DNA of 9,402 nucleotides from Gammaproteobacteria bacterium (lineage in GTDB: Bacteria; Pseudomonadota; Gammaproteobacteria; Competibacterales; Competibacteraceae): assembly GCA_020047885.1 (NCBI GenBank), contig JAIFNF010000328.1, forward strand, positions 1-9,402, written 5' to 3'. This document shows positions 1 through 9,402 of the stretch, piece by piece. Below the pieces are notes generated by a model. The model had not been told where the DNA came from. It did no database searches and saw nothing but the letters and a program-made list of their open reading frames with translations. The number at the start of each line of letters is the position of its first letter. The first letter of the stretch is position 1. The position numbers were made by a program, and so were the translations under genes.

Positions 1-134
1 AGGCGCTGGAACAAAATGGTAAGAATCTGGGAGGCCGCCCCCTGAAGGTCAATATGGCGACAGAGAAACCCGCCAGAGGGGGACGTAGCGGTGGCGGTGG
101 CGGCGGTGGCGGCGGTGGCCGCTCGAGATGGTAA
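1..134 (+). CDS. RRM-type RNA-binding protein, C-terminal fragment
   Basis: The reading frame enters from the left edge (first full codon at 3) and gives 43 residues ending at TAA 132-134. The first part reads ALEQNGKNLGGRPLKVNMA, which matches the last helix and strand of an RNA recognition motif (the usual form is a small 'AL..LNG..L.GR.L.VN.A' pattern). It is followed by a basic linker and a tail of ten consecutive glycines ending in RSRW. This is the typical end of the small glycine-rich RRM proteins of bacteria, single-domain proteins of roughly 80-150 residues that bind single-stranded RNA, often with a role in cold adaptation or mRNA handling. The RNP1 and RNP2 motifs lie outside the window, so family membership rests on the C-terminus only. 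The glycines are encoded by alternating GGT/GGC (90-119), a simple repeat that could change length by slippage. Confidence 0.75.
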   Translation, partial: ALEQNGKNLGGRPLKVNMATEKPARGGRSGGGGGGGGGGRSRW

Positions 135-158
135 TATCTCGCTGCATATAGCAAAACG

Positions 159-186
159 GCAGGGGTAACCAGATGTTTACCCCTGC
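159..186. terminator. Two-way intrinsic terminator between RRM gene and minus-strand operon
   Basis: There is a perfect 10-bp inverted repeat, GCAGGGGTAA (159-168) and TTACCCCTGC (177-186), with an 8-nt loop. It lies 24 bp after the RRM gene stop and just beyond the stop of the small minus-strand gene at 206. On the minus strand the stem is followed by CGTTTTGC; on the plus strand by the weaker TATTCTTC. Its place between two converging genes fits a shared terminator. The U-tracts are short, so efficiency is uncertain. Confidence 0.7.
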
Positions 187-205
187 TATTCTTCAATCAG
201 CAAAT

Positions 206-481
206 CTACAACGACCGAACCTTCAGTCGACCTTGAGCTTCCGCATCGTCCGTCGTCAAGGCGCTGCCCAGATCGTCTTGCCATTCAATCCCGCCTCCAC
301 CGTATCTGACCGGCGTCAAGTCAGTTTCCACCGCGACCGGCAGGTAAGCCACATCGTAATAGGGATTAGGCCCACCTTCATCCTGAGGTTCTTCGTACAA
401 ATCCCAGCGCGGCCAATCATCCGGACTTTCCTTGCCCGCACGGGAAACCGCGCGACGTTCATACAGCGTATAGAGCTTCAT
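206..481 (-). CDS. Small conserved-looking hypothetical protein, 91 aa, in operon with alaA
   Basis: I do not recognise this protein. It begins MKLYTLYERRAVSRAGK and is rich in acidic and aromatic residues in its middle (SPDDWPRWDLYEEPQDEGG, then PNPYYDVAYLPV), with a GGGG stretch near residue 63. It has no predicted signal peptide, membrane segment or cysteine, so it is probably a soluble cytoplasmic protein. The start is supported by GAGAGG in the minus-strand leader, about 7 nt before ATG. It starts 15 bp after the alaA stop on the same strand, so it is almost certainly co-transcribed with alaA, and its end lies just before a convincing terminator. The opposite-strand frame over the same region lacks such support. 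Function is unknown; the link to amino-acid metabolism rests only on its position. Confidence 0.7.
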   Translation of the reverse strand: MKLYTLYERRAVSRAGKESPDDWPRWDLYEEPQDEGGPNPYYDVAYLPVAVETDLTPVRYGGGGIEWQDDLGSALTTDDAEAQGRLKVRSL

Positions 482-496
482 CAGCGAGACCTCTCG

Positions 497-1726
497 TTAC
501 GCAGCGCCATACCGCTTGCGGTAGCGATCCAGAAAGCGGGCCAAGCGCCCCATAGCGTCTTTCAGATCATCTTCATGCGGTAAAAACACTACCCGCATGT
601 GATCAGTCTGCGGCCAGTTGAATCCCGTCCCCTGGACCAGCAACACTTTTTCTTCCAATAACAACTCCAGAACAAACTGCTGGTCGTCAGCAATCGGATA
701 GATGTGGGGATCGAGCCGGGGGAACAGATACAGCGCCGCCCGCGGTTTAACGCAACTGACGCCGGGAATCCCGGTTAACAGATCAAACGCCAGATCGCGT
801 TGTTTGCCCAAGCGCCCAGTCGGCAACACCAGATCATCAATGCTTTGATAACCGCCCAGTGCGGTCTGAATCGCGTTTTGCCCCGGTACATTGGCGCACA
901 ACCGCATGGAGGCCAAAATCGTTAAACCTTCAATATAATCCTGCGCGTGACTTTTCTCGCCCGAAACCACCATCCAGCCGGCGCGGTAGCCGCAGCAGCG
1001 GTAATTTTTCGACAGGCCATTGAACGTCACACACAACACGTCATCCGCAAGCGAGGCTATCGATGTATGCTCAGCGCCGTCATAGAGCACCTTGTCATAG
1101 ATCTCATCGGCGTACACAATCAACTGGTGCCGCCGCGCCAAATCCAAAATGCCCTCCAATATCTCCACCGGATACAGTGCGCCCGTGGGGTTATTGGGGT
1201 TGATAATCACGATCGCCCGGGTGTTGGGGGTAATCTTGCCCCGGATATCATCCAGATCCGGCAACCAGTCCGACGATTCGTCGCAATGGTAATGGCGCGG
1301 CAACCCACCCGACAAGCTGACCGCCGCCGTCCACAGCGGGTAATCCGGCGCGGGAATCAACACCTCATCGCCGTTGTTCAGCAAAGCCTGCAAAACCATC
1401 ACGATCAGTTCAGACACGCCATTACCGACGTAGATGTCTTCCATCTGTACGCCGACGATCTGCTTCTGCTGGGTGTAGTGCATGATCGCCTTGCGGGCGG
1501 CGAACAAGCCTTTGGAGTCACAGTAACCGGAAGCGTCCGGCAGGTTGCGAATCACATCCTGGACAATTTCATCCGGCGCAGTGAACCCAAACGGCGCCGG
1601 GTTGCCAATATTGAGCTTGACGATCCGTTGACCTTCATCTTCCATTTGTTTGGCGCGCGCCAGCACCGGCCCGCGAATGTCGTAGCACACATTGGCCAGC
1701 TTGGCGGATTTGAGGACGGGTTGCAT
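497..1726 (-). CDS. alaA: Alanine aminotransferase (glutamate-pyruvate transaminase), AlaA type
   Basis: This 409-residue fold-type I PLP enzyme catalyses L-alanine + 2-oxoglutarate = pyruvate + L-glutamate (EC 2.6.1.2) in the cytoplasm and is a main route of alanine synthesis. It resembles E. coli AlaA (YfbQ, about 405 aa) along its whole length: KLANVCYDIRGPVL near the N-terminus, LNIGNPAPFGF (38-48), GYCDSKGL (67-74), PAPDYPLWTAAVSLSGG (125-141), CDESSDW (148-154), the INPNNPTGA loop (175-183), YADEIYDK (205-212), the PLP-binding lysine K240 in FNGLSK, and a carboxylate-binding arginine near R378. The frame stays open upstream to 1843, but homology starts at the Met at 1726, where AGGA lies 9 nt upstream; the longer start would also run into the divergent ATPase gene. 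A promoter lies just upstream (1758-1786). A small gene follows in the same operon. Confidence 0.95.
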   Translation of the reverse strand: MQPVLKSAKLANVCYDIRGPVLARAKQMEDEGQRIVKLNIGNPAPFGFTAPDEIVQDVIRNLPDASGYCDSKGLFAARKAIMHYTQQKQIVGVQMEDIYVGNGVSELIVMVLQALLNNGDEVLIPAPDYPLWTAAVSLSGGLPRHYHCDESSDWLPDLDDIRGKITPNTRAIVIINPNNPTGALYPVEILEGILDLARRHQLIVYADEIYDKVLYDGAEHTSIASLADDVLCVTFNGLSKNYRCCGYRAGWMVVSGEKSHAQDYIEGLTILASMRLCANVPGQNAIQTALGGYQSIDDLVLPTGRLGKQRDLAFDLLTGIPGVSCVKPRAALYLFPRLDPHIYPIADDQQFVLELLLEEKVLLVQGTGFNWPQTDHMRVVFLPHEDDLKDAMGRLARFLDRYRKRYGAA

Positions 1727-1740
1727 GGAAATCAATCCTG

Positions 1741-1777
1741 AGGGCAGTAAAACTGGTATTATCAGCCAGTTCGCCCT
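1741..1777. promoter_or_regulatory. Nested inverted repeat over the alaA promoter, possible operator
   Basis: An outer pair AGGGC (1741-1745) / GCCCT (1773-1777) encloses an inner pair ACTGG (1752-1756) / CCAGT (1766-1770), with the alaA -10 box in the middle and the likely start site at its edge. A dimeric or tetrameric regulator bound here would block alaA. The symmetry is visible; the operator role is inferred. Confidence 0.35.
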
Positions 1778-1786
1778 GATCGCCAA
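1758..1786 (-). promoter_or_regulatory. Sigma-70-type promoter for alaA
   Basis: Read on the minus strand, there is TTGGCG (1786-1781) and GATAAT (1763-1758) separated by exactly 17 bp. The -10 matches the consensus at five of six positions and the -35 at four of six. Transcription would start near 1751, leaving a leader of about 25 nt before the alaA ATG at 1726, with the AGGA ribosome site inside it. No equally good promoter was seen for the divergent ATPase gene. Confidence 0.55.
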
Positions 1787-1825
1787 GCGCTCTCGATTAA
1801 AGACCGTATTGCGGAGAAATGACCT

Positions 1826-4015
1826 ATGCCCCATCGCCGCCACCGCCGCCGCACGCTGGACGATATGCCGGAACTATCCACTGATGACGATGTTTTTGAC
1901 TTCTCGTTTGGCCTTGATGAAGACGAGTTGGAATTGAATGATGATGCCGAAGCGCTGCTCGAAGAATTAGCGCACCTCAGCCCCAATTACGCGATTCTGC
2001 GGCGTTGCTGGGTGCTGCGAGCCTGGTTGGGGGTGCGCCCGGAACGGGTAGAAGCCTACCTGCAGCAACATCGGCGCAGCCGGATATTGACTGCATTAAA
2101 TATCCAGTTGCGGGGTCCGATTAGCCCAGCTCTGCAACGGCAACTGAGCAAACAGAATGTGGAGTCGCGCACGACCGACACCCGCCCGCCCTTCGGCAAC
2201 GTCGCCACCATCGCCGCCGCCCTGGGACTGGCACCGCTGGAACAGGAACTGTTGTTGCTGGCCGCTATGCTGCATCTGGATCCGACCTTGTACCTAGCCT
2301 GTCAGCCGCTGGGCGAATTCAGCCGCCGGGGAGCCTGCGCCGCACTGGCGACCATGCTGGGCGCACGTCCTGATGCGGTCTACCGGGCGCTGCTGCCCAA
2401 CGGCTTGCTGGCGCGAACCGGCCTGGTCCGGATCGACGACAGCCATCGCTACCACCTGAAAGCCAAGCTGGATATTCTCGACCGCCTGCCGCAACTGCTG
2501 CTGAGCGAGCCGGTCGATACCGCGACCCTGTTCCAGCATTATGTCGCCCTGGCGCGGCCAGCAGTGCTCACTGCCAATGATTTCGCTTACCGGTCGGAAG
2601 ACGTTACGCTCGCCCGCCAACTGCTGGCCAAAGCCGCGGCGACGGGAACGCCAGGGGTCAATGTGTTGTTGTACGGCCCGCCCGGCACCGGCAAAACCGA
2701 ACTGGCGATGACCTTGGCCGAGGCCGCCGGTCTGACCCTGTTCACGGTGCAGGCCAGTGATGAGGAAGAGGATCCGCTCAACGCTCGACAGCGGCTATCC
2801 CGCTACAGCCTGGCCCAGCACCTGCTCGCCCGCCGCCATGAATGCGCCCTCCTGTTCGACGAGGCCGGCGATGTGCTCTCGGAAGGCGGTGAGATGGATC
2901 TGCCGTTCTTTATGCCCCGTGACAGCGGCATCAACAAGGGCTGGCTGAACGGGGTGCTGGAACAGAATCCGACGCCAGCCATCTGGGTCATCAACCGCAT
3001 TGATACCGTTGATCCGGCATTCCTGCGCCGCTTCGATTTACAACTTGCTCTGGATATTCCCCCCCGGCCGGTGCGGGAGCGGATTATCCGTCGCCATCTC
3101 GGTGAATTAGCCGTGGATGCACGCTGGATTGCCGAGCGGGCGGAAAATCCCCATCTCAGTCCGGCGCTGGTGCAGAAGGCGGCGCGGCTGGTGCATTTGC
3201 TGCCGGAGGCGTTTGCCGAACAGGGCGAAGCGCTGCTAAGTCGAATCCTCGATCACGCTCTGGCCGCGACCCGCCATGGCGAACCGCCTTTCCAGCCGAC
3301 GATGGTGGGTATTGGCGATAACTATGATCCGGCACTGATTAACGCCGATTGCGACTTGCCACGGCTGGTTCAGGGTCTCGCCCGCCAGGGTCGAGGGCGC
3401 ATTTGCCTGTACGGACCCTCGGGAACCGGCAAGAGCGCGTTCGCCGCCTGGTTGGCGCGTCGCCTGGATCGACCGTTGTTGCTACGCACCGCCTCCGACC
3501 TGCTCAACCCTCTGGTAGGCGTGACCGAGGAGCGGATTGCCGCGATGTTTCAGGAAGCCCACCAAAGCCGGGCGGTGTTGCTGATTGATGAAGCCGATTC
3601 CTTCCTGCGCTCCCGACAGTATGCCCGTCAGACCTGGGAGGTCACGCAAGTTAACGAATTGCTGGTACGCATGGAGCAGTTCGATGGCATTTTGCTGTGC
3701 GCGACGAACCGGGTCAGCGACCTCGACCCGGCGGTGCGGCGACGGTTTGATGTCAAGGTGCGCTTCTGGCCACTGGCCGCCGAGCAGGCCGAACAGTGTT
3801 TACAACGTGCTTTGGAAGAAGCGGGAACCTGGTCGGAAGAGCGTGGTTTGAACGAGGATCTGTTGACCCGGTTATGGGCGATTGGGTCGCTAACCCTCGG
3901 GGATTTCGCCACGATCCGCCGCCGCGCTGCGCTGCTCGATCAGCCGCTGACCCCGGAATTGTTGCTGGGTGCGCTGGCCGAAGAGGCAGAATTACGGCGG
4001 CAAATGGAAGAGTAG
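1826..4015 (+). CDS. Tandem AAA+ ATPase (two ATPase modules), function unknown
   Basis: A 729-residue cytoplasmic protein of the Vps4/SpoVK/Cdc48-like AAA+ group. Residues 1-50 are a basic start followed by a strongly acidic stretch (residues 20-45); residues 50-250 form an alpha-rich N-terminal region I cannot assign. Module 1 has Walker A GPPGTGKT (284-291), Walker B ALLFDEA (341-347), sensor-1 N390 in WVINR and arginine fingers R401/R402 in FLRRFD. Module 2 has GPSGTGKS (530-537), VLLIDEAD (584-591), sensor-1 N628 in CATNR and arginines 638-640. Both modules therefore look able to bind and hydrolyse ATP, unlike many tandem AAA+ proteins with one dead site. The ATG at 1826 is preceded by GGAGAA 7 nt upstream. 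Such proteins usually form hexameric rings that remodel or unfold other proteins; the substrate is unknown. The gene ends 76 bp before queF and may be co-transcribed with it. Confidence 0.85.
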   Translation: MPHRRHRRRTLDDMPELSTDDDVFDFSFGLDEDELELNDDAEALLEELAHLSPNYAILRRCWVLRAWLGVRPERVEAYLQQHRRSRILTALNIQLRGPISPALQRQLSKQNVESRTTDTRPPFGNVATIAAALGLAPLEQELLLLAAMLHLDPTLYLACQPLGEFSRRGACAALATMLGARPDAVYRALLPNGLLARTGLVRIDDSHRYHLKAKLDILDRLPQLLLSEPVDTATLFQHYVALARPAVLTANDFAYRSEDVTLARQLLAKAAATGTPGVNVLLYGPPGTGKTELAMTLAEAAGLTLFTVQASDEEEDPLNARQRLSRYSLAQHLLARRHECALLFDEAGDVLSEGGEMDLPFFMPRDSGINKGWLNGVLEQNPTPAIWVINRIDTVDPAFLRRFDLQLALDIPPRPVRERIIRRHLGELAVDARWIAERAENPHLSPALVQKAARLVHLLPEAFAEQGEALLSRILDHALAATRHGEPPFQPTMVGIGDNYDPALINADCDLPRLVQGLARQGRGRICLYGPSGTGKSAFAAWLARRLDRPLLLRTASDLLNPLVGVTEERIAAMFQEAHQSRAVLLIDEADSFLRSRQYARQTWEVTQVNELLVRMEQFDGILLCATNRVSDLDPAVRRRFDVKVRFWPLAAEQAEQCLQRALEEAGTWSEERGLNEDLLTRLWAIGSLTLGDFATIRRRAALLDQPLTPELLLGALAEEAELRRQMEE

Positions 4016-4030
4016 AGGTTATACAAACAT

Positions 4031-4073
4031 CCCCTTGCCCGCTGGGAGAGGGGTTGGGGAGAGGGCGTTTTTT
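4031..4073 (+). terminator. GC-rich hairpin followed by T6 tract in the ATPase-queF gap
   Basis: CCCCTTGCCC (4031-4040) pairs with GGGAGAGGGG (4044-4053) around a 3-nt loop with one G-A mismatch and one G-T pair. It is followed by a second G-rich run (TTGGGGAGAGGGCG) and six Ts (4068-4073). The T-run is 14 nt from the stem, so this is not a textbook terminator; pairing of the first C-rich arm with the second G-rich run would move the stem closer. The sequence resembles the C-rich/G-rich dispersed repeats ('CCCCTCTCCC...GGGAGAGGGG') common between genes in proteobacteria. It could act as a partial terminator or as a processing site. Confidence 0.4.
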
Positions 4074-4091
4074 CAACTGCGGGATAGACCG

Positions 4092-4502
4092 ATGTCTGAA
4101 GCCACTATTGCTGGCCTGACCCTGTTGGGCAGCACTGTCACTGAATATCCGCGTGAATACGCGCCCCAGATTCTGGAGCGGTTCGCCAACCGTTATCCCC
4201 AGCATGAGTATGTGGTGGAACTGGATTGCCCGGAATTTACCTGTCTGTGTCCGGTCACCGGCCAGCCTGACCTGGCTCGGGTCACCATCCGTTACAGCCC
4301 GCGTGACTGGCTGGTGGAATCAAAGTCGCTGAAATTGTATCTGTTCAGCTTTCGCAACCAAGGGTCGTTCAGCGAGGACAGCATCAATCGCATCGCGGTC
4401 GATTTATTGGCGCTGTTGCAACCGCGCTGGCTGGAAGTGCGCGGTGATTTCGCCCCCCGCGGCGGCATTGCCATCAAGCCCAGTGTGCGGCTGGAGTCGT
4501 AA
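4092..4502 (+). CDS. queF: NADPH-dependent 7-cyano-7-deazaguanine reductase (preQ0 reductase), short type
   Basis: This 136-residue enzyme reduces the nitrile of preQ0 to the aminomethyl group of preQ1 using two NADPH (EC 1.7.1.13), a late step of queuosine precursor synthesis. It belongs to the tunnelling-fold family. The signature is clear: ELDCPEFTCLCPVTGQPD (43-60) holds the catalytic cysteine C53, which forms the thioimide with preQ0, and the proton donor D60, seven residues apart as in the Bacillus enzyme. The QueF motif VESKSLKLYLFSFRNQ follows at 75-90. The length shows the one-domain (YkvM) type, not the two-domain 280-residue type of E. coli. The start at 4092 is set by homology; the ribosome site (GGGA, 7 nt upstream) is weak, and no better start lies downstream. 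queC begins 3 bp after the stop. Confidence 0.95.
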   Translation: MSEATIAGLTLLGSTVTEYPREYAPQILERFANRYPQHEYVVELDCPEFTCLCPVTGQPDLARVTIRYSPRDWLVESKSLKLYLFSFRNQGSFSEDSINRIAVDLLALLQPRWLEVRGDFAPRGGIAIKPSVRLES

Positions 4503-4505
4503 CGC

Positions 4506-5177
4506 ATGAGCCAGGCGCTTGTGGTGCTTTCCGGCGGCCAGGATTCAACCACCTGCCTGTACTGGGCGCTGCGCCAATTCGGCAACGGTCAGGTGGAAGC
4601 AGTGACTTTTGATTACGGTCAGCGGCATCGTCTGGAACTGGACTGTGCGGCGCGGGTGGCTGCTCAAGCGGGCGTACCGCAAACGGTGTTGCCCATCAAC
4701 ACGTTCGCGGCGCTGGGCGGCAATGCGCTGACCGAAACCGGTATCGCGGTGCGGGATGGCGTCGATGCCCAAACCCGGTTGCCCAATACCTTCGTGCCCG
4801 GCCGCAACCTGATTTTTCTAACTTTCGCCGCCGCCCTTGCCTACCCACGAGGCATTCACCATCTGGTGACCGGCGTCGCCCAGACCGACTACAGCGGCTA
4901 TCCCGATTGTCGGCAAGCGACGATTCAGGCGCTGGAGCAGGCGATTCAGTTGGGGATGGCATACGACATCACGATTCATGCACCGCTGATGTTCAAATCC
5001 AAGGCGGACACGGTACGACTGGCCAGTGAACTGGGCGCACTGCCAGCGCTGGCCGATACGCACACCTGCTATAACGGCGTTCGTCCGCCCTGTGGGGAAT
5101 GTCCGGCCTGCCGGTTGCGGGCGCGGGGCTTTGCCGAGGCGGGCATCGCGGATCCACTGCTGGCGCTCTGCGCATGA
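4506..5177 (+). CDS. queC: 7-cyano-7-deazaguanine (preQ0) synthase
   Basis: This 223-residue ATP-dependent ligase converts 7-carboxy-7-deazaguanine and ammonia to preQ0 (EC 6.3.4.20). It has the PP-loop nucleotide motif SGGQDSTT at 9-16, [11 protein letters not shown] (35-45), [10 protein letters not shown] (96-105), GYPDCR (131-136), and the zinc-binding cysteine set C188, C196, C199 and C202 in TCYNG...[11 protein letters not shown], all standard for QueC. Length matches the family (about 220-230 aa). The ATG at 4506 has GGAG 9 nt upstream, inside the end of queF. Its stop overlaps the queD start as ATGA, which points to translational coupling. The product is the substrate of the upstream gene's enzyme, QueF. 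Confidence 0.96.
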
Positions 5178-6217
5178 ACGACCGGCTGTATTTCATCGCG
5201 GCAGCGCCCTTTGAAGCCGCACGGTGTCTGACCGGAACGCAGGATGAACGCCAGATGCGGCTGCATGGGCACAGCTTTCTGGCGCGGGTTCGGGCGACGC
5301 TGCCCAGGGGTTTTGCCTCCTTTCCCGGTGCCGAGGCGGAAGTGCTCACCCAGCGGTTGCAGGATGCCGTTGCTCCTCTGGATTATGCCTTTCTGAATGA
5401 ACACGTGCCGAACCCGACCGATGAGCAACTCGCCGACTGGATTGGCGAGCGCCTGGAGGTGCCAGACATCGCGCACATCAGCGTCCAGAGCGCGGCGCAT
5501 CAAGGCGTGTCCGTCGATGCTGACCGTCAGGCGCACGGCTGGCGGCGCTTCCGTTTTGAAGCCGCGCATCAGTTACCGAACGTTCCACCGGGTCATCCGT
5601 GCGGGCGAATGCATGGGCATGGCTTTGAAGTCATCCTCTGGGCGACTGGCGCGGACTACTCACCGTTGGCAGTCGCTTGGACGCCATGGCATGAACAGTT
5701 GCACTTGGCGTGTCTGAACGATGTGCCGGGGTTAGAAAATCCAACCAGTGAGCGGCTGGCGGCGTGGTTGTGGGCGCGGTTACAACCGGATTTACCGCAA
5801 CTGTCACGGGTTACGGTGTATGAAACCGCGACCGCCGGCTGTCATTATGACGGCAGCCGCTACCGGATCTGGAAGGAGCGCGTTTTTGACAGTGCACTGT
5901 GTTTGCGCAACGCCCCGGTCGGCGATGCCCGTCGCCGGACGCATGGACATAGCTATACCTTGCGTCTGCATCTGACCGCCCCGCTGGATGACACCATGGG
6001 CTGGACGGTCGATTACGGCGAGGTCAAGGCGTTATTTGAACCGCTCTACCGGCAACTGGATCATCACCGGCTGAATGACCTGGCGGGCCTGACGGAACCG
6101 ACGCTGGCCGAATTACTGGGCTGGATGCGCGCGCAGATGGCGATGGTGTTGCCCGCTCTGGATCGAATTGATCTGGAGCAAACGCCGGGTTGCGGGGCAA
6201 TATTGTCTTGGAGTTAG
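5174..6217 (+). CDS. queD: 6-carboxy-5,6,7,8-tetrahydropterin synthase, triple PTPS-domain fusion
   Basis: QueD converts dihydroneopterin triphosphate to 6-carboxytetrahydropterin (EC 4.1.2.50). Normal QueD has about 120 residues; this one has 347 and contains three PTPS repeats: about 5-115, 125-227 and 234-345. Each keeps the core HGH motif (H31/H33, H147/H149, H257/H259). Repeat 2 is closest to E. coli QueD ([44 protein letters not shown]) and alone has all three zinc histidines (H132, H147, H149), the cysteine C143 and glutamate E217. It lacks about 9 residues, including the Asp-His pair. Repeat 3 has [10 protein letters not shown] and LDHHRLND (D296, H297) but L242 in place of the first zinc His and R253 in place of Cys. 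Repeat 1 has R17 and Q27 at those two places and D70-Y71 for Asp-His. The start is the ATG overlapping the queC stop; an upstream extension of the frame lies inside queC. Confidence 0.88.
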
Positions 6218-6232
6218 GCGATTTCCTGAAAA

Positions 6233-6254
6233 GAGGATACCTGCCTTGATCCTC
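6233..6254 (+). terminator. Small hairpin after queD, possible weak terminator
   Basis: GAGGAT (6233-6238) and ATCCTC (6249-6254) form a 6-bp stem with a 10-nt loop, 15 bp after the queD stop. No T-run follows, so termination here would be weak; the larger palindrome just downstream may do more. Confidence 0.25.
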
Positions 6255-6278
6255 ACTCCAACCAAACGTGAGAATTTT

Positions 6279-6350
6279 AGCCACGGAATGACACGGAATA
6301 ACACTGAAAAATAAAGAATTTTCCGTGTTTTTCTGTGTCATTCCGTGGCT
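6279..6350. repeat. 72-bp palindromic repeat, copy 1 (between queD and icd)
   Basis: Near-perfect inverted repeat: the outer 16 bp, AGCCACGGAATGACAC (6279-6294), match the reverse complement of 6335-6350 exactly, and pairing continues inward with two mismatches and one G-T pair to a short A/T-rich loop near 6311-6318. Each arm is made of 10-bp units: CACGGAATGA (6282-6291), CACGGAATAA (6292-6301), CACTGAAAAA (6302-6311). A related copy lies at 8769-8857. It has no coding capacity; frames running through it are by-products. It could form a long RNA hairpin at the end of the queFCD transcript or a DNA cruciform. No clear target-site duplication is seen. Confidence 0.85.
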
Positions 6351-6367
6351 CATCATCTGGAATGATG
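6351..6367. repeat. Short inverted repeat next to palindrome copy 1
   Basis: CATCAT (6351-6356) and ATGATG (6362-6367) flank a 5-nt loop and directly abut the large palindrome. A similar small dyad, ATGATC/GATCAT, lies 24 bp beyond palindrome copy 2. The stem is short and A/T-rich; a role is not evident. Confidence 0.3.
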
Positions 6368-6385
6368 ATCGACGCTCGGTATAGT
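6357..6385 (+). promoter_or_regulatory. Possible icd promoter
   Basis: TATAGT (6380-6385) matches the -10 consensus at five of six positions. The segment 17 bp upstream (CTGGAA, 6357-6362) is a poor -35 with three of six matches. Transcription would begin near 6392, giving a leader of about 95 nt before icd that carries the dyad at 6442-6455. A separate promoter is expected, because icd is cut off from queD by 270 bp with the palindrome. Confidence 0.35.
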
Positions 6386-6441
6386 TTTTATGAGAAATCA
6401 CCTTAGCAACGGAGCCACCTGTCCTGTCCATACCGCTGGCC

Positions 6442-6455
6442 TGACCTTCAGGTCA
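6442..6455. promoter_or_regulatory. TGACCT-TC-AGGTCA dyad in the icd leader
   Basis: A perfect 6-2-6 inverted repeat 32 bp before the icd ATG. The size and symmetry fit a binding site for a dimeric helix-turn-helix regulator; with a 2-nt loop it is less likely to act as an RNA hairpin. No regulator can be named. Confidence 0.35.
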
Positions 6456-6487
6456 ATTCAACTTAAATCAGCAACGAGGTTTGATCC

Positions 6488-8725
<2,238 letters not shown>

Positions 8726-8768
8726 GGCAACTCGCAAAAAATAGTCCCATACCCTTCCTTCCAAACCT

Positions 8769-8857
8769 AGCCACGGAACAACACGGAACAACACGGAAAA
8801 AAACCAGAAGATCCTTCTTTTCTGTGTCTTCCGTGTCTTCCGTATCGTTCCGTGGCT
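8769..8857. repeat. 89-bp palindromic repeat, copy 2 (after icd)
   Basis: The outer 11 bp AGCCACGGAAC (8769-8779) match the reverse complement of 8847-8857. Inner pairing continues with a few mismatches and a bulge to a loop around 8800-8815. The left arm has three 10-bp units: CACGGAACAA (8772-8781), the same again (8782-8791) and CACGGAAAAA (8792-8801). The right arm carries the reverse units, with an extra TCTTCCGT-type unit compared with copy 1. It lies 43 bp after the icd stop and could serve as an RNA 3' hairpin that terminates or stabilises the icd message. It belongs to the same family as 6279-6350, in which the terminal AGCCACGGAA is identical. Confidence 0.85.
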
Positions 8858-8881
8858 TAATCCTTATACGCGGTCAAAGCG

Positions 8882-8911
8882 ATGATCCAAGCAGATCATT
8901 CGAGGGTTTTT
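8882..8911 (+). terminator. Small hairpin and T5 run before queE
   Basis: ATGATC (8882-8887) and GATCAT (8894-8899) form a 6-bp stem with a 6-nt loop, followed 7 nt later by GGGTTTTT (T5 at 8907-8911). The stem is A/T-rich and not directly next to the Ts, so it is a poor terminator candidate. I see no clear promoter for queE between it and the GTG at 8947. Confidence 0.2.
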
Positions 8912-8946
8912 AGTGCTTGCCTCAATGCTGTTTATGGGGTTGAACG

Positions 8947-9402
8947 GTGAAGATTTACCAAGTCAAGGAAATCTTCTACACCCTTCAGGGAGAAGGGGTC
9001 TGGACTGGGCGGCCGGCGGTGTTTTGCCGGTTTGCGGGCTGCAATTTATGGAGTGGGCGGGAGGCGCATCGGGCGACAGCGGTTTGCCGTTTTTGTGATA
9101 CCGATTTTGTCGGTGTTGATGACTCCGGCGGCGGCCAGTTTGCTACGCCGGAGGCGCTGGCCAACGCTATTGCAAAGCATTGGCCAGCACATAGTCCCCA
9201 CGCCCGGCCCTATGTGGTTTGCACGGGCGGAGAACCCCTACTGCAACTGGATCAACCGTTGATCGCCGCGTTGCACGCCCGGGGGATTGAAGTGGCGGTG
9301 GAAACCAACGGGACTTTGGCGGCGCCGTTCGGATTGGACTGGATTTGTGTCAGCCCCAAGGCCGCCGCGCCGTTGCGGCTGACCTGGGGCGATGAATTGA
9401 AG
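8947..9402 (+). CDS. queE: 7-carboxy-7-deazaguanine synthase (radical SAM), N-terminal part, cut by window end
   Basis: QueE rearranges 6-carboxytetrahydropterin to 7-carboxy-7-deazaguanine (EC 4.3.99.3) with SAM and a [4Fe-4S] cluster. The visible 152 residues run through the right edge; a full protein is about 210-220 aa. The start is GTG at 8947: an in-frame TGA lies at 8941-8943, and family homology starts at once (KIYQVKEIFYTLQGEG, then TGRPAVFCRFAGCNLWSG). A modest GGGGT ribosome site lies 7 nt upstream. Cluster cysteines are C32, C47 and C50, spaced CX14CX2C, rather than the radical SAM CX3CX2C; this extended loop is known from Burkholderia multivorans QueE. Also seen are FCDTDF (49-54), the SAM-binding TGGEPLLQ (93-100), VETNGT (118-123) and SPKA (136-139). 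It acts between QueD and QueC but is separated from them here by icd. Confidence 0.93.
   Translation, partial: MKIYQVKEIFYTLQGEGVWTGRPAVFCRFAGCNLWSGREAHRATAVCRFCDTDFVGVDDSGGGQFATPEALANAIAKHWPAHSPHARPYVVCTGGEPLLQLDQPLIAALHARGIEVAVETNGTLAAPFGLDWICVSPKAAAPLRLTWGDELK

Follow-up and report, generated by a model that had tools for sequence, protein, structure and literature searches.

A probable QueD protein of three PTPS repeats in one chain, with one kind of composite active site predicted

Can one polypeptide take the place of the trimer ring of QueD, and which active sites would it then keep? The question is raised by queD3 (5174..6217, forward strand), which encodes a protein of 347 residues in a stretch of 9,402 nucleotides from a gammaproteobacterium of the Competibacteraceae (assembly GCA_020047885.1, contig JAIFNF010000328.1, positions 1 to 9,402 of the forward strand; this whole stretch is called the window). 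We consider it likely that the protein is the organism's QueD (6-carboxytetrahydropterin synthase) of the queuosine pathway, with the usual trimer ring replaced by three PTPS repeats in a single chain and one kind of site left. It very probably works as QueD, each chain having one composite site. Apparently, this is an old and widespread natural fusion of a homo-oligomeric enzyme, whose subunits were joined in a single chain, released from symmetry, and reduced to a single composite site; hundreds of sequences reveal half-sites kept by selection. Two questions thereby become testable, namely which QueD residues need to come from different subunits and what reason there could be to trade six sites for two. 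Furthermore, motif checks designed for a single repeat could misjudge three-repeat QueD proteins.

Three repeats and their active-site residues

The Pfam model PTPS matched the protein in three stretches (E 7.8e-50), as did the NCBIfam model QueD (TIGR03367; 131.1 bits versus a curated cut-off of 89.25), in agreement with the initial annotation, which had proposed three PTPS repeats in one chain. PTPS was the sole Pfam match and only PTPS/QueD models matched in NCBIfam; a QueF domain was not matched in the protein. With its length of 347 residues and its three domains, the protein is not a single-domain QueD of about 120 residues.

Repeat 1 comprises residues 1-118 (5174..5527), repeat 2 residues 119-228 (5528..5857), and repeat 3 residues 229-347 (5858..6214), all on the forward strand. 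Repeat 2 contains the motif CxxxHGH (C143, H147, H149), the zinc histidine H132, E217, and PTSE, and it is devoid of Asp-His and of GW..DF. The codons of its predicted zinc site and catalytic Cys (H132, C143, H147, H149) lie within 5567..5620 and that of E217 at 5822..5824. Repeat 3 contains G276-W277, D280, Y281, and D296-H297 (codons of W277, D280, Y281, D296, and H297 within 6002..6064), with L242 at the position of the zinc His and R253 at that of the Cys. All of these residues that the initial annotation had named were found where it had placed them. In repeat 1, R17 stands for the zinc His and no Cys is present in the window protein; HGH (H31, H33), D70-Y71, and PTDE were found.

Three motif classes have been distinguished: CxxxHGH for QueD/PTPS-I, ExxHGH for PTPS-III (folate type), and CxxxxxHGH for PTPS-II (biopterin type) (PMC5041015). 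In repeat 2 of the window protein, G144 stands at the Glu position of the PTPS-III motif and H141 at the Cys position of the PTPS-II motif, so that neither of these two motifs is present.

Relatives were collected by protein searches and a genome scan. A protein search yielded 2764 proteins at E ≤0.001, the best 120 of which were listed (339-381 residues, the window's own included); a second search starting from a member of the Magnetococcales yielded 2887 proteins, and its best 120 had one protein in common with the first list. Names such as Ferrovum and Nitrosomonas occur among the best 120 of these 2887; proteins of other architectures may occur beyond the best 120 in either search. Genome contigs were scanned as well, which revealed 219 encoding stretches; the top 80 were retained (the 80 related loci or genomes referred to below); their hosts were Competibacteraceae, Chromatiaceae, Thiothrix, Methylococcaceae, Magnetococcales, symbionts, and others. 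When the class to which one Thiothrix genome belongs was sampled evenly, 145 of 274 genomes gave any match and 15 of 274 a match of at least 246 bits; these 15 include the genome at the centre of the sample and another that had been encountered before, with its match in two pieces. The alignment consisted of 332 rows, 239 of them listed proteins and 93 read from loci (the 80 best stretches and 13 others). Being related, these rows do not count as independent: over residues 5-340 there are 325 different ones, and about 130 remain at 80% identity.

All nine key residues occupied their divided places in 331 of the 332 rows and in 324 of the 325 distinct rows, the sole exception being an unread residue. 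The division proposed by the initial annotation, with zinc ligands, Cys, and Glu in repeat 2 and Asp-His in repeat 3, hence held across the family; because of this retention it is not a matter of chance, and an origin by chance or from a pseudogene was ruled out by the invariance across the alignment. H132, C143, H147, H149, and E217 were each present in 332 rows, as were W277, D280, and H297 of repeat 3; D296 was present in 331. CxxxHGH was found in every repeat 2, in no repeat 3, and in nine rows of repeat 1, never together with the zinc His. Conversely, GW..D was found in 327 rows of repeat 3 and in none of repeat 1 or repeat 2, and W..D[YF] was absent from every row of the latter two. An aromatic pair, Trp51/Phe55, distinguishes QueD from mammalian PTPS; repeat 3 has this pair throughout, as W277 (332/332) followed by an aromatic residue at position 281 (Tyr in 210 rows, Phe in 122).

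The zinc-His position of repeat 1 is occupied by Arg in 284 rows, Cys in 41, and Leu in seven, and residue 71 is Tyr in 330; in repeat 3 the zinc-His position is never His. Both histidines of HGH were nevertheless retained in repeat 1 (332/332) and in repeat 3 (331/332), with the third ligand gone. The view of the initial annotation that the other sites have decayed was supported, with the correction that repeats 1 and 3 lack the zinc His while their HGH histidines are still present. In the window, the HGH codons are located at 5264-5272 (repeat 1) and 5942-5950 (repeat 3).

The pterin-anchor motif PTSE was kept in repeat 2 (T191 and E193, 332/332), occurred as PTDE in repeat 1 (E84 in 314 rows), and was lost from repeat 3. 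For rat PTPS, T105, T106, and E107 have been assigned to the acceptor site (PMC7546909). By our own matching of the sequences, PTSE would correspond to this T105-E107 motif.

Asp-His at the right place in repeat 2 was absent from 236 rows, including the window protein and its 17 nearest listed relatives, and present in 96; a looser count of Asp-His anywhere in repeat 2 gave 167 rows, 71 of them with the pair at other places. The initial annotation had stated that repeat 2 lost both Asp-His and GW..DF. This is correct for GW..D in all 332 rows and for Asp-His in the window, but does not extend to Asp-His in the family as a whole. These rows bear on the idea that repeat 2 is self-sufficient and forms its sites with other copies of repeat 2, repeats 1 and 3 being passive oligomerization modules. 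Repeat 2 does have all zinc ligands, the Cys, and the Glu, some rows retain Asp-His there, and the single-QueD proteins that matched more strongly in the class sample aligned mainly with the query's repeat 2; against these stand the virtual invariance of W277, D280, D296, and H297 in repeat 3, the complete absence of GW..D from repeat 2, and the loss of Asp-His from most of its rows. We regard this idea as very improbable. What is constant in the family, as read from the alignment, is that selection keeps the repeat 3 copy of Asp-His.

In the composite site that we propose, repeat 2 would provide the zinc histidines H132, H147, and H149, the catalytic C143, E217, and additionally E193, and repeat 3 would provide W277, Y281, D280, and the pair Asp296-His297, which would activate the Cys. 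Repeat 1, probably a scaffold, and the other two potential sites would have decayed to structural parts.

Predicted structure and place of the site

AlphaFold predicted the single 347-residue chain as one tight body (predicted local distance difference test, pLDDT, 95.4; predicted template modelling score, pTM, 0.91), and a fold comparison matched repeats 2 and 3 to the paired T-folds of uricase. A compact single-chain body with uricase-like pairing of repeats 2 and 3 is thereby supported, whereas closure of the ring was barely covered by the fold comparison. Alignments to bimodular QueF (model residues 1-347, 183-188 residues aligned, root-mean-square deviation 5.6-5.7) were set aside in judging whether the ring closes.

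The initial annotation had placed one site inside the chain, at the interface of repeats 2 and 3, with the single chain closing as a ring; such a site would need no dimer. Repeats 2 and 3 are packed neighbours in the model and the residue pattern is compatible with such a site; moreover, in bimodular QueF the site does lie between T-folds, two of which are fused in a single chain (PMC5372742). Nevertheless, we regard a site within one chain as doubtful, because PTPS sites draw on three monomers: each site is built by residues of three monomers (PMC7546909, PMC4790348), and PTPS is described as two trimers arranged head to head (PMC7546909). For the related GTP cyclohydrolase I, a site formed by two subunits of one ring and one of the opposite ring is described (PMC4005822).

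A further point against the site within one chain is that helix 281-295 of the model has W277/Y281 at one end and D296/H297 at the other, by our estimate about 21 Å apart along its axis. A single repeat 3 may therefore fail to serve one substrate with both W277/Y281 and D296/H297. In rat PTPS, three monomers (A, A', and B) reportedly contribute residues to the site, the Cys being A42, the Asp B88, and the His B89. Six chains in three structure entries have the rat sequence; with two chains per entry and a threefold crystal axis, A and B would be in different trimers.

Two chains probably stack head to head in the manner of the QueD hexamer, giving two sites per dimer and not six. In the arrangement that we prefer, at least the Asp-His of each site would be contributed by the partner chain through its repeat 3, and the two copies of repeat 1 would face one another. 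A stack of this kind brings each repeat 2 opposite the partner's repeat 3, and two living and four dead sites result. A contribution across chains seems rather probable to us, and a site composed of repeats 2 and 3 of one chain together with repeat 3 of the other would solve the problem of the distant helix ends. The analysis shows the residue split and its conservation, the gene context in relatives, the sole-copy status in some of them, and a confidently predicted three-domain body; that the protein is catalytic, forms a dimer, and has a site across chains is inferred.

The partners within a ring would be repeats 1 and 2, 2 and 3, and 3 and 1, and those across the rings repeat 1 with repeat 1, repeat 2 with repeat 3, and repeat 3 with repeat 2 of the other chain. 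Both kinds of site fit the residue pattern equally, since both predict that repeat 1 loses both halves, that repeat 2 may lose Asp-His, and that repeat 3 loses zinc. In mutual information calculated over the 332 rows, a split between clades outweighed other signals; pairs that separate same-ring from cross-ring partners ranked low and were hence uninformative.

A more elaborate version would be an obligate two-chain machine, in which each site consists of repeats 2 and 3 of one chain and repeat 3 of the other, and four pseudo-sites, decayed yet conserved (HGH of repeats 1 and 3; R17, D70, and Y71 of repeat 1), are kept for a second task, for example binding of an effector or of the QueE encoded nearby for handing on the product. 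We consider this version as a whole quite unlikely.

Compared with E. coli QueD (4ntk, 4ntm, 3qn9; PTPS-I of COG0720), which has one repeat per chain, the protein has three, and two of the three sites per ring look dead, with the residues partitioned. Identity to the E. coli QueD entries was 37-38% for repeat 3 in the fold comparison; the top rows of Foldseek gave about 50%. Bimodular QueF of E. coli and V. cholerae belongs to the same pathway and to the T-fold superfamily, and it also consists of fused T-fold domains; it has two domains and nitrile reductase chemistry, whereas queD3 encodes three. Each of its domains supplies part of the active-site elements, which come together in the tertiary structure, and a central tunnel is absent (PMC5372742). 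By analogy, bimodular QueF is a precedent for a divided site in tandem T-folds. Uricase and GTP cyclohydrolase IB have two T-folds per chain and other chemistry, in contrast to the three T-folds here.

The listed members of the family bear the NCBI/JGI names 6-carboxytetrahydropterin synthase or 6-pyruvoyltetrahydropterin/6-carboxytetrahydropterin synthase. A description of a three-repeat QueD was not found in titles and abstract openings of open-licence literature on QueD/PTPS fusions and on PTPS/QueF structure, which is no proof of absence. These proteins are thus already annotated as QueD, and the account of its three-repeat architecture appears to be new.

PTPS proteins of the related genomes

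The fused protein could be a regulatory or structural paralog, with another PTPS performing the reaction. Many related genomes hold other PTPS paralogs; however, the three-repeat protein was the only PTPS match in 19 of the second 40 related genomes and probably in three of the first 40 (G006, G015, G037), where G006 and G015 each had one weak match outside the listing. In these probably 22 sole-copy genomes of the 80, tgt was found in 21 (over the cut-off in 20) and a QueE-like match in all 22, in 15 of them adjoining the three-repeat gene.

The extra PTPS matches of the other genomes were fetched and classed by motif. Among 90 such matches, 40 had ExxHGH, 35 HGAT, three HSHH, five CxxxHGH with Asp-His, and two CxxxHGH without Asp-His; of the other five, four were of one type (Cys and Asp-His, with HGG for HGH) and one was a fragment. 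Left unclassed were two extra three-repeat copies (G036:C49, truncated by the contig end, and G034:C90, which is frame-broken), as well as unlisted matches with E values above 5.9e-9. A separate normal queD, which the initial annotation had brought up as a challenge to its reading, was found in 5 of the 80 related genomes in the form of a PTPS with CxxxHGH and Asp-His; it was not among the fetched and classed matches of the other 75, which does not prove its absence, as many of the genomes are drafts or metagenome bins. Most extra paralogs are devoid of the CxxxHGH Cys, namely those of the HGAT, ExxHGH, and HSHH types.

The genomic context likewise argues against a mere paralog. queC was present in 67 of the 80 related loci, ending at most 100 nucleotides upstream of the three-repeat gene in 64, and queE started at most 400 nucleotides downstream in 70. 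Given this queC-queE cluster and the invariant catalytic residues, we find it hardly credible that another PTPS does the work. By sequence and context, we class the three-repeat protein as a QueD in a new architecture.

Several points weigh against our preferred reading of one chain as a ring with one kind of site. HGH persists in repeats 1 and 3, where a pure scaffold would not need it, and the 96 rows given above have a correctly placed Asp-His in repeat 2. Closure of the ring is taken from the confidence of the model, the fold-comparison rows mostly spanning residues 116-347 and barely covering repeat 1. The part concerning the facing ring draws on general background, by which Asp-His of PTPS probably comes from the facing trimer. 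Five related genomes do contain the separate PTPS just described. Finally, QueE matches exceeded the TIGR04349 cut-off in only 2 of the 22 sole-copy genomes; the match of one genome (G078) reached only 30.7 bits, yet QueE adjoins its three-repeat gene.

The HGAT paralog, found in 35 genomes (L081, L082, L085, L087, and others), is a conserved single PTPS common in Chromatiaceae and Competibacteraceae. It shares the PTPS domain with the three-repeat protein, as do the other single-domain paralogs of these genomes that differ by the missing CxxxHGH Cys; the HGAT type, with HGAT for HGHS, has in addition lost the second HGH His and has Asp-Tyr, Asn-Tyr, or Asn-Phe for Asp-His. PTPS proteins of the HGG type were encoded at L101:339-1544 and at places of L102, L103, and L104 (genomes G034, G026, G027, and G059), and could represent either a modified QueD or a regulator; the one at L101 is located at the end of a protein of 402 residues, the first 250 of which had no Pfam match at E 0.001. 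Second copies of the three-repeat gene were seen at two loci, frame-broken in Thiorhodococcus minor (L100) and truncated by the contig end in an Ectothiorhodospiraceae genome (L106).

Origin and neighbouring genes

A tree was calculated from 16 proteins cut into repeats and 12 single PTPS proteins, with the root at the midpoint for display. All repeat 1 rows formed one clade (100/100), as did all repeat 3 rows (100/100); the repeat 2 rows were not resolved as a clade, and six single QueDs of relatives formed a clade (99/97). The repeat 1 row of L175 was very long and its placement is unsure. In the simplest reading of this tree, repeats 1 and 3 are old clades, and the three-repeat form would have arisen once, before its hosts diverged.

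In the window, queD3 follows queC (7-cyano-7-deazaguanine synthase, 4506..5177, forward strand; TIGR00364, 235.9 bits versus a cut-off of 150.3). The ATG of queD3 at 5174 overlaps the queC stop codon (ATGA), and the queD3 stop codon ends at 6217. Upstream of queC lies queF, encoding a single-domain preQ1 synthase (4092..4502 with an inferred start, forward strand; TIGR03139, 151.8 bits versus 86.9, scanned as 4059-4502). queE (7-carboxy-7-deazaguanine synthase) occupies 8944..9402 on the forward strand, its start being inferred and its remainder truncated by the window end; its product has 64% identity over 150 residues to QueE of Thiothrix fructosivorans (L044), the neighbour there, which was recognized as QueE by TIGR04508 (347.5 bits versus 240). 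Pfam and NCBIfam scans additionally revealed an aminotransferase gene (497-1843, reverse strand) and a gene for an ATPase with two AAA domains (1826-4015, forward strand). Neither a tRNA nor an Rfam family at the gathering threshold was found in the window.

A gene for a monomeric isocitrate dehydrogenase (6488-8725, forward strand) separates queD3 from queE, which adjoin in 70 of the 80 related loci; an isocitrate dehydrogenase gene also follows queD3 in the nearest relative (L001). Two related inverted repeats, both starting with AGCCACGGAA, were observed: one after queD3 (6279-6350), with arms of 32 nucleotides, 8 nucleotides between them, and 91% complementarity, and the other after the isocitrate dehydrogenase gene (8769-8857), with arms of 20 nucleotides, 49 nucleotides between them, and 90% complementarity.
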